Below are positions 48,340-58,485 of a stretch of DNA of 64,000 bases, in pieces. Numbering within the stretch: the stretch's first letter is position 1; each line of letters opens with the position of its first letter. A model generated the notes under the pieces. That model was given only the letters and a program-made list of their open reading frames with translations, ran no database searches and was not told where the DNA came from. The position numbers were made by a program, and so were the translations under genes. This DNA comes from Thioalkalivibrio sp. ALJ16 (GTDB lineage Bacteria; Pseudomonadota; Gammaproteobacteria; Ectothiorhodospirales; Ectothiorhodospiraceae): positions 50,340-114,339 of the forward strand of contig NZ_KB898044.1 in the NCBI RefSeq assembly GCF_000377345.1, given 5' to 3'.

Positions 48340-48437
48340 GGATCACTCGCTCCGGCGAACACTCGCAGGCGCGGACGCCACGGGTTCCCCGTTGTTGCGT
48401 TCAGGAAAGGAACGTTTCGCTCACCCGAGCGTAACGG

Positions 48438-48887
48438 TCAAGAAATCCCCAGTGCGGTGCGGACCTTCTGACTGACAACGCCCAGGTCGGCGCGCCCGAA
48501 GACCCGGGACTTGAGTATGCCCATCACCTTGCCCATGTCGCCCGGAGCGGTGGCGCCGGTCTCGGCAATCGCCTCGGCGATCATCTGCTCCAGTTCGGCA
48601 TCGCCCAGCGGTTCGGGCATGTAGGCCTCGATCACCGTGATCTCGGCCGCCTCGCGCTCGGCCAGATCTTCGCGACCGCCCTTGCGGAACTGGTCGATGG
48701 AGTCGCGCCGCTGCTTGAGCATGCGGTTGAGGATCGCGAGGACCGCATCGTCGTCGGCGTCGCGGCGCTCGTCCACCTCGAACTGAGAGATCTCGGCCTG
48801 AATCATGCGCAGCGCACCCAGCCGGTCTTTCTCCCGGGCACGCATGGCCTGCTTCACGTCGTCCTGCAGCCGGGCCTTGAGTGACAT
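48438..48887 (-). CDS. yqeY: GatB/YqeY domain protein
   Basis: A 149-aa protein of the GatB/YqeY family: a helical domain also found at the C-terminus of GatB, possibly binding tRNA. It has RAREKDRLGALRMIQAEI, DAVLAILNRMLKQRRDSIDQFRKGGR and the C-terminal GDMGKVMGILKSRVFGRADLG. In related bacteria it is often between rpsU and dnaG. Here it follows rpsU (41-nt gap) and precedes gltD by 98 nt on the minus strand, while dnaG is elsewhere. Confidence 0.93.
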   Translation of the reverse strand: MSLKARLQDDVKQAMRAREKDRLGALRMIQAEISQFEVDERRDADDDAVLAILNRMLKQRRDSIDQFRKGGREDLAEREAAEITVIEAYMPEPLGDAELEQMIAEAIAETGATAPGDMGKVMGILKSRVFGRADLGVVSQKVRTALGIS

Positions 48888-48903
48888 CTTGAGGTCCTCG
48901 GTT

Positions 48904-48920
48904 CCGGGCCAGTGGCCCGG
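48904..48920 (-). terminator. Hairpin between rpsU and yqeY
   Basis: A 7-bp GC stem (CCGGGCC pairing with GGCCCGG) with a 3-nt loop lies between the rpsU stop and the yqeY start on the minus strand. Enteric rpsU-dnaG-rpoD operons have a leaky terminator after rpsU; this hairpin could play the same role, but it lacks a T-run. Confidence 0.4.
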
Positions 48921-48928
48921 ACAGGGGT

Positions 48929-56800: not shown

Positions 56801-58314
56801 TCGAGGACCTGGCGCAGCTGATCTTCGACCTCAAGCAGGTCAACCCGGATGCGCTGGTCTCGGTAAAGCTGGTCTCCGAGGCCGGCGTCGGCACCATCGC
56901 CGCTGGCGTGGCCAAGGCCTACGCCGACCTGATCACCATCTCCGGCTATGACGGCGGCACCGGCGCCAGCCCGCTGACCTCGGTGAAGTACGCCGGCACC
57001 CCGTGGGAACTGGGCCTGACCGAGACCCACGCGACCCTGCGCGGCAACGACCTGCGCGACAAGGTACGCCTGCAGACCGACGGCGGCCTGAAGACCGGCC
57101 TCGACGTGATCAAGGCGGCGATCCTGGGTGCGGAGAGCTTCGGCTTCGGGACCGGCCCCATGGTCGCGCTCGGCTGCAAGTACCTGCGGATCTGCCACCT
57201 GAACAACTGCGCAACGGGTGTCGCCACGCAGGACAAGGTGCTGCGCATGAACCACTTCATCGGCCTGCCCGAGATGGTCATGCACTATTTCCAGTTCGTC
57301 GCCCGCGAGACCCGCGAGTGGATGGCGAAGCTGGGCGTGCGCAGCCTGACGGATCTGATCGGCCGTACCGATCTGCTGGAGATCCTGCCGGGCGAGACGC
57401 CGAAGCAGCAGCACCTGGACCTGAACGGCCTGCTGGCCAGTGGCGATCTCGACGACAAGCCGCGCTTCTGCAAGGAGCCGAAGAACGAGCCGTTCGACAA
57501 GGGCGAGCTGGCCGAGAAGATGGTCGCCGAGATGATCGAGACGATCGAGAACAAGGCCGGTGGCGAATACCGTTTCGACGTCGCCAATACCGACCGCTCG
57601 ATCGGCGCGCGGCTGTCCGGCGAGATCGCCAAACGCCACGGCAACCAGGGCATGTCCGATGCCCCGATCACCGTGCGCATGAAGGGCACGGCCGGGCAGA
57701 GCTTCGGCGTCTGGAACGCCGGTGGCCTGCACCTGTACCTGGAAGGTGACGCCAACGACTACGTCGGCAAGGGCATGACCGGCGGCAAGCTGGTGATCCG
57801 CCCACCGGAAGGCTCGGGCTTCGCCAGCCAGGACACCACCATCATGGGCAACACCTGCCTGTATGGGGCAACCGGCGGCAAGCTGTTCGCCGCCGGCCAG
57901 TGCGGCGAACGCTTCGGGGTGCGCAACTCCGGCGCGATCGCCGTGGTGGAAGGCATCGGCGACCACGGCTGCGAGTACATGACCGGCGGCGTGATGGTGG
58001 TGCTGGGCAACACCGGCATCAACTTCGGCGCGGGCATGACCGGCGGCTTCGCGTTCGTGCTGGACCGGGAGAACGACTTCCCGGACCGCATCAACAACGA
58101 GCTGATCGACCTGCACCGCCTCGACACCGAGGAGATGGAGGCGCACCGCAACTATCTCGAGGAACTCATCACCGAGTTCGTGCACGAGACGGACAGCGCC
58201 TGGGGCCGCGAGATCCTGGAACGTTTCGACGACTACCAGGGCTCGTTCTGGCTGGTGAAGCCCAAGGCCTCCGAACTGCGGGGCCTGCTGGCCAACCTGC
58301 GCCAGGCCGCCTGA
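53851..58314 (+). CDS. gltB: Glutamate synthase large subunit
   Basis: Large subunit of glutamate synthase, making two glutamates from glutamine and 2-oxoglutarate. The 1487-aa product has the N-terminal class II amidotransferase with its catalytic Cys20 (DNCGFGL), the FMN-binding synthase domain ([13 protein letters not shown]), the 3Fe-4S Cys1109/1115/1120 ([12 protein letters not shown]) and the C-terminal GXGXG beta-helix domain ([20 protein letters not shown]). Start ATG 53851, GGAG upstream. In most relatives gltD follows directly; here a terminator and then dnaG follow. Confidence 0.97.
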
Positions 58315-58340
58315 CCCGCCCCACCCTTCGGCGGAACGTT

Positions 58341-58368
58341 GAAACGGGCCCCTCACGGGGCCCGTTTC
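58341..58368 (+). terminator. Rho-independent terminator after gltB
   Basis: A perfect 12-bp stem (GAAACGGGCCCC pairing with GGGGCCCGTTTC) with a 4-nt TCAC loop, followed by ATTT, lies 26 nt after the gltB stop. It ends gltB transcription before dnaG. Confidence 0.85.
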
Positions 58369-58485
58369 ATTTGCAGCCCCACAGAACCTGTGATGGCAGC
58401 ACGCGCACCCTGACGACCACCTACGGCTCCGGGCTATCATGCGAAGCTGATCACCGGCACGACCCGAGGAGCACGCGGCACCCCC

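Follow-up and report, generated by a model that had tools for sequence, protein, structure and literature searches.

The window, a stretch of 64,000 nucleotides from Thioalkalivibrio sp. ALJ16 (contig NZ_KB898044.1), carries two gene groups of opposite orientation, hemE-gltD-yqeY-rpsU on the minus strand and aroB-dgt-SPOR-gltB-dnaG-rpoD on the plus strand. Open reading frame lists, Pfam and NCBIfam bear out the genes, strands and coordinates given in an initial annotation of this DNA, and also its statement that two operons, gltB-gltD and rpsU-yqeY-dnaG-rpoD, are both split here. The features of the locus, with the junctions named according to the reading developed below, are the following:

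37080..37622, minus strand: aroK (shikimate kinase), named by reading; homologues adjoin aroB in relatives
37727..42626, minus strand: pilQ-pilP-pilO-pilN-pilM; pilQ and pilM over the NCBIfam cut-off, pilN, pilO and pilP by position
42716..45145, plus strand: ponA (PBP1A family), NCBIfam TIGR02074 over cut-off, divergent from pilM
45146..45867, no strand: hemE/ponA junction, novel, putative closing point of a circular permutation (order in relatives)
45868..46923, minus strand: hemE (uroporphyrinogen decarboxylase), Pfam PF01208
46936..48339, minus strand: gltD (glutamate synthase small subunit), Pfam and homologues
48340..48437, no strand: yqeY/gltD junction, putative insertion junction 1 (order in relatives)
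48438..48887, minus strand: yqeY, Pfam PF09424
48929..49144, minus strand: rpsU (bS21), Pfam PF01165
49145..49335, no strand: probable genus-level breakpoint from the 5′ side of rpsU to the 5′ side of aroB, replacing tsaD/rpsU and aroK/aroB
49336..50433, plus strand: aroB, named by reading the sequence and by matches in relatives
50417..51607, plus strand: dgt-like HD phosphohydrolase, Pfam HD and HD_assoc
51619..53457, plus strand: protein with AAA and SPOR domains, Pfam
53851..58314, plus strand: gltB (glutamate synthase large subunit), Pfam
58315..58485, no strand: gltB/dnaG junction, putative insertion junction 2 (order in relatives)
58486..60276, plus strand: dnaG (primase), Pfam
60387..62384, plus strand: rpoD (sigma-70), NCBIfam NF004208 over cut-off, start codon provisional

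An MMS operon has rpsU, dnaG and rpoD consecutively on one strand; in the window rpsU-yqeY lies on the minus strand and dnaG-rpoD on the plus strand with 9.3 kb between them. Likewise, in a gltBD operon gltB immediately precedes gltD on the same strand; here gltB ends at 58314 on the plus strand and gltD occupies 46936-48339 on the minus strand.

The initial annotation had explained both splits by a recent 10-kb inversion of the block 48438-58314 in this lineage, and flipping this block on paper does restore both operons. It had proposed an alignment with relatives to find the uninverted order. However, the gene order of the window is common to all 14 other genomes of the genus with this gltD as far as their contigs reach, and could be traced through to dnaG in 12 of them. 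This agreement led us to reject an assembly artefact. Close relatives sharing the order had been named beforehand as an outcome that would refute the proposal, and a single recent inversion can therefore not be upheld. The kind of event, its date and the breakpoints were all wrongly assigned, and the split is present in the genus and in many other families. The same junctions occur in 16 other sampled families, and the 8 genomes that could be followed over the whole stretch lack the strand change. A parent of the kind predicted, in which gltB-gltD and rpsU-yqeY-dnaG are both unbroken and rpsU diverges from aroB, was not found among 80 named loci, the family genomes with both genes placed, seven unsplit genomes or the 15 class genomes whose gltD and yqeY share a contig (aroB was not searched for in the class sample). 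Furthermore, aroK, which is expected upstream of aroB in such a parent, lies 11.7 kb away at the far end of a different inverted block. The motif GGAACGTT, pointed out earlier as common to both junctions, is indeed present at 48409 and 58333, but there are two further copies of this 8-mer at 13741 and 58218, and since all four are found on the plus strand and none on the minus strand, the two junction copies are direct repeats. Recombination between direct repeats leads to deletion and not to inversion, and we therefore rejected GGAACGTT as a recombination site. Altogether we regard a single recent inversion as highly improbable.

For a wider comparison a class sample of 258 gammaproteobacterial genomes was used, 124 of which have this gltD. 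These divide into 86 with gltB next to gltD, 26, counting the window, with the new junctions, and 12 that are arranged otherwise or could not be placed. Beyond the window there are thus 25 derived genomes, which belong to 16 family codes besides that of the window; remnants of the arrangement in G110, G183/G280, G086/G212 and G098 add four more, giving 21 in total. Among the named loci an Acidihalobacter sp. MAG (L001), Granulosicoccaceae MAGs (L010, L036, L061), a Chromatiales MAG (L006) and a gammaproteobacterial MAG (L004) are derived. What stands of the initial annotation is that the two splits are linked: yqeY/gltD and gltB/dnaG occur jointly, and among the rows listed none of the genomes combines yqeY-gltD with gltB-gltD or yqeY-dnaG with either yqeY-gltD or yqeY-hemE.

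In 8 of the 25 derived genomes and in three genomes of a sister genus (g4, G043-G045) the permuted order was traced completely, from rpsU to dnaG; it runs on one strand as rpsU-yqeY/gltD-hemE/ponA(divergent)-pilMNOPQ-aroK-aroB-(dgt-SPOR)-gltB/dnaG, with dgt or SPOR giving no match in some. In the sister genus all genes from rpsU-yqeY-gltD-hemE through the divergent ponA, pilMNOPQ, aroK, aroB, dgt, SPOR and gltB to dnaG and rpoD are present in this way. In the completely traced genomes outside the genus of the window the two halves share a strand and fit within about 24 kb. The gene directly in front of gltD is yqeY in all 25 derived genomes, save that in G207, where no yqeY was found, it is rpsU. 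At the other junction gltB lies at most 0.5 kb before dnaG in 18 of the 25; five could not be judged, and in two a dgt-like match stands in a gap of 1.5 kb (G093) or 5.9 kb (G215). Beyond hemE, ponA follows in 20 derived genomes; it was not found within 10.6-11 kb behind hemE in G185 and G282, and the contigs of G090, G126 and G093 end before it could appear. The left flank of the recipient site is kept, tsaD being divergent and at most 0.4 kb from rpsU in 21 of the 25 derived genomes; in the other four the distance is 3.7 kb (G090) or 1.6 kb (G207), no match was obtained (G179) or the contig ends (G279). On the right, rpoD stands behind dnaG in 11 derived genomes, in G043-G045 and in the window, and no match to it was found within 5-17 kb behind dnaG in seven (G121, G126, G173, G093, G207, G215, G232); in the remaining seven its position is not visible. 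The right flank therefore appears to have been broken again in part of the group.

In unsplit genomes ponA (divergent) pilMNOPQ-aroK-aroB-(dgt-SPOR)-gltB-gltD-hemE is found at one place and rpsU-yqeY-dnaG-rpoD at another. Seven such genomes were fetched, of which G063, G077 and G119 are complete, G141 has no hemE match, G258 is cut at pilP, and G153 and G133 are incomplete or rearranged. In five of the seven tsaD is divergent within 0.4 kb of rpsU, and aroK is upstream of aroB in six of them and in L018, L029 and L034 (none was seen in G153). Adjacent gltB-gltD is also the rule in the named loci (74 of 80, e.g., Pseudomonas, Halomonas and Solimonas), and none of these 74 unsplit loci shows rpsU or yqeY. 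Among the 86 class genomes with adjacent gltB-gltD, yqeY and dnaG are adjacent in 46, a gene is unlisted in 36 and adjacency is lacking in four, two of which (G183, G280) hold an insertion remnant with the gltB-gltD pair elsewhere. In 15 of the 86 yqeY is on the same contig, never closer than 38 kb, and in the rest it is on another contig or unlisted. At the donor site the left neighbor of ponA is partly conserved in unsplit genomes and the right neighbor of hemE is not, and a comparison of these neighbors revealed no scar.

On these comparisons the most likely history is a single ancient insertion, between yqeY and dnaG, of a cluster of about 20 kb in circularly permuted form, probably followed in the genus of the window by an inversion of rpsU...aroK; we put the probability of this reading at about 85%. 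The inserted cluster would be ponA-pilMNOPQ-aroK-aroB-(dgt-SPOR)-gltB-gltD-hemE, with its opening point at gltB/gltD and its closing point at hemE/ponA. Because tsaD stays beside rpsU in most derived genomes and the one set of genes lies inside the other, the recipient was the MMS operon and the joint was yqeY/dnaG. The derived order in the 11 genomes read end to end equals the unsplit order of G063, G077 and G119, and that of G141 and G258 as far as their missing ends allow, except for one opening and one closing point. From this permutation we infer excision as a circle: the cluster would have been excised with its ends joined outside ponA and hemE, and reintegration would have occurred via the gltB/gltD joint of the circle and the yqeY/dnaG joint of the chromosome. 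Excision and reintegration would amount to two double-cut-and-join steps, i.e., a block interchange. Later, in the genus of the window, rpsU...aroK (37080-49144) would have flipped against aroB...rpoD.

The circular route is our preference and not a finding, as two overlapping inversions, one joining gltB/gltD with yqeY/dnaG and a following one joining the hemE and ponA sides, would lead to the same end product with no excised circle; on paper the resulting adjacencies are those of excision and reintegration. The orientation that the first inversion needs also exists, gltD and yqeY being on opposite strands in 10 of the 15 genomes with intact gltB-gltD and yqeY on the same contig. However, such a path requires an intermediate with gltB-dnaG and yqeY-gltD distant from each other or on opposite strands; none was recognized (genomes split over several contigs cannot be judged), and the derived genomes read end to end outside the genus of the window all show the compact order. 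We consider the pair of inversions rather less likely than not. We also dropped the idea, based on map positions in Pseudomonas, that an ori-symmetric inversion had acted between two distant operons, as both halves lie within that short distance on one strand in the derived genomes that were traced completely.

As to whether the insertion happened once, the derived rows are scattered in the free FastTree trees with 4, 3 and 3 changes. With IQ-TREE the tree of five proteins has two changes, one of them forced by well-supported branches, and the GltB+GltD tree four, three of them forced; G121/G232 stand apart in one free tree and G279/G182 and two other groups in the other. Taken at face value these groups would favor several separate rearrangements, or a horizontal spread of the permuted cluster, over one vertical event. 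However, a constraint of the derived rows to one clade was not rejected for the five proteins (27 of 54 rows, p-AU 0.785) or for GltB+GltD (37 of 119 rows, p-AU 0.982), and the constraint raised the likelihood by 46 and 184 units, respectively; the constrained trees being the more likely ones, the free quick searches were therefore not optimal. Moreover, the same three junctions are found wherever the full stretch is readable (hemE-ponA is missing in G185 and G282), which makes a repeated origin unlikely, while the tests leave room for transfer. We consider independent origins or transfer unlikely, and a single origin of the permuted order is likely though not shown. The most complete version of our preferred reading would be that a circle of about 20 kb (ponA-pilMNOPQ-aroKB-dgt-SPOR-gltBD-hemE) was excised once and reintegrated into the MMS operon in a common ancestor of more than 20 gammaproteobacterial families, so that the three junctions are a single heritable clade marker and the essential genes for primase and sigma-70 have since been decoupled from bS21, with gltBD losses, the detachment of rpoD in some lineages and the inversion in the genus superimposed later. 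To this whole sequence of events we give somewhat less than an even chance.

Some genomes hold what appears to be the same insertion without gltBD. In nine genomes yqeY and hemE are adjacent with no gltD between them. The order tsaD/rpsU-yqeY-hemE-ponA-pilMNOPQ-aroK-aroB-...-dnaG is whole in G220, G183, G280, G086, G212 and G098, is found with pilM-pilP unmatched in G036, and could be traced up to dgt in G110; in G120 a fragment of gltD still separates yqeY from hemE. Such lineages are expected if hemE travelled in together with gltD. G165, first counted as a remnant by its spacing, was dropped: hemE does stand next to yqeY, but its gltB/gltD are of another kind and the interval before dnaG gave no pil-aro matches. 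It does not fit the proposed history.

Within the genus of the window rpsU...aroK is opposite in orientation to aroB...rpoD. The divergence of aroB and rpsU is a separate change at the level of the genus, since in the sister genus both junctions are on one strand and aroK adjoins aroB. yqeY and aroB are divergent neighbors in 27 of the 28 genus genomes with both genes (different contigs in the 28th), at a distance of about 0.4-0.8 kb, or 3 kb in G004. In the other genera of the family the two genes are on the same strand in 5 of 14 genomes, opposite but 957 kb apart in one and on different contigs in eight. A genus member without this gltD and gltB (G002, L158) has hemE directly behind yqeY at the same inverted position, and aroK, the left end of the inverted block, is at the same place in G005 and L151. 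An inversion of 12 kb, i.e., of rpsU...aroK (37080-49144) against aroB...rpoD, is therefore likely, with endpoints other than those proposed earlier. The pilQ-pilP-pilO-pilN-pilM genes, whose homologues keep the same order in relatives, most likely came in with the insertion and were turned round by the later inversion. A single simple inversion is not the whole history of the genus: in G005 and G012 tsaD is about 120 kb from rpsU, and at least one further break must therefore have followed. The open reading frames left of aroK and 5′ of tsaD in the genus were also listed, and the listing did not solve the path of tsaD.

A terminator of its own had been proposed for gltB. A strong terminator-like hairpin with a 13-bp stem is present 3′ of gltB at 58340-58369 on the plus strand (86-nt stretch, −45.5 kcal/mol, z −5.4), but with only three T in its tail it was not called by a consensus terminator scan, which found terminators in the region no more often than in shuffled sequences (6 vs 6.0). 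As the hairpin occurs in all 13 genus loci (the window among them) in which both gltB and dnaG are present, it would shield dnaG-rpoD from transcription coming from gltB in the genus. In 11 of the 18 genomes with a measured gap below 3 kb, gltB and dnaG are separated by 71-112 bp. A hairpin of 10 bp that has one mismatch and a T-rich tail lies four bases behind yqeY in the yqeY/gltD junction. This terminator-like hairpin, weaker than the one after gltB and also seen in some genus members, speaks against an uninterrupted rpsU-yqeY-gltD transcript; whether gltD is reached by read-through from rpsU-yqeY cannot be told from the sequence alone. Changed control of the glutamate synthase and the primase/sigma genes, suggested before for this locus, is a prediction, and it would apply to a much wider group than the genus.

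The MMS operon couples the starts of translation, replication and transcription, and a paper by Versalovic et al. from 1993 is said to treat its evolution. The derived lineages, of which there are many, present a natural experiment in which this operon is uncoupled and genes for glutamate synthase, haem, pili and aromatic compounds stand between its parts, and they make the importance of co-transcribing rpsU with dnaG-rpoD testable. Rare changes of gene order which involve several junctions are also strong markers for deep branches poorly resolved by sequence trees, and in our sample the permuted order separates two large sets of gammaproteobacterial families. Our literature search found no description of the arrangement, including in the consulted parts of PMC9578407, PMC9803151 and PMC2683817.

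Compared with the MMS operon of Escherichia coli and relatives (rpsU-dnaG-rpoD; the consulted part of PMC9578407 also describes a form containing yqeY), the derived genomes have the same genes, keep rpsU-yqeY together (apart from G207 with no yqeY) and in 21 of 25 retain the tsaD flank. They differ in that rpsU-yqeY and dnaG are about 20 kb apart (about 12-14 kb without this gltBD) and of opposite orientation in the genus of the window, and in that 7 of the 25 gave no rpoD match after dnaG. Relative to the pilMNOPQ-aroKB-...-gltBD-hemE neighborhood of gammaproteobacteria all members are present and the internal order is kept save for one opening point, whereas the derived form is a circular permutation in which gltB and gltD form the new ends and hemE has become joined to ponA. 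The derived end product matches the double-cut-and-join model of a block interchange, in which, according to the consulted part of PMC2683817, a segment is excised, circularized, re-linearized at new cut points and reintegrated. There the block interchange is a computational operation, whereas we propose it as what happened to an actual, widely inherited gene cluster, by a route that we infer from the end product.

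In lineages that lack this gltBD, hemE still lies behind yqeY and the pil-aro block still precedes dnaG (loci L219-L225, read from genomes G220, G183, G280, G165, G086, G212 and G098, and L155-L158). G165 is an exception among the former seven and carries a different gltB/gltD, and in G039 there is an extra break between pilQ and aroK. A gltD fragment with 51% over 378 bases, apparently a decaying copy, is found between yqeY and hemE in G120 (L228, 4866-5243). Besides the insertion remnant, that is the rpsU-yqeY-hemE-ponA-pil-aro-dnaG order, an intact gltB-gltD pair is present elsewhere in G183 (the contigs concerned being C11 and C7) and in G280 (C3 and C19), and this pair was perhaps re-acquired.

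Among the derived genomes, G207 showed no yqeY match between rpsU and gltD (L206), gltD following directly after rpsU. No rpoD match was obtained within 5-17 kb behind dnaG in seven derived genomes (L229-L234, L238); the dnaG-rpoD link appears to be broken in these too.

Other arrangements of the two operons were observed as well. In G133 (L128-L130), which is of the unsplit type, rpsU-yqeY-dnaG-rpoD and pilQ-aroK-aroB-dgt share a strand, the former lying upstream by about 6 kb, and gltB-gltD is located 18 kb further. On C1 of G276 yqeY and dnaG are on opposite strands about 1 Mb apart with gltB-gltD intact; the MMS operon (rpsU-yqeY-dnaG-rpoD) was split independently in this genome.

At the left genus-level breakpoint two short tandem ORFs adjoin aroK:
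Window 36048-36458, first short ORF
Window 36458-36895, second short ORF
A similar ORF also adjoins aroK in locus L151.

The AAA+SPOR coding region contains, on the opposite strand, an ARAGORN call which is probably false:
Window 53004-53095, minus strand, tRNA-Pro(cgg)

Three genomes of the genus were inspected for tsaD:
G000, C1, 246357-247280, tsaD
G005, C1, 159181-160104, tsaD
G012, C1, 639566-640489, tsaD
The gene stands together with plsY, about 120 kb away from rpsU in G005 and G012 and on a separate contig from rpsU in G000. The usual arrangement of tsaD is divergent from rpsU; in these three genomes its 5′ neighbour is not rpsU but another ORF.
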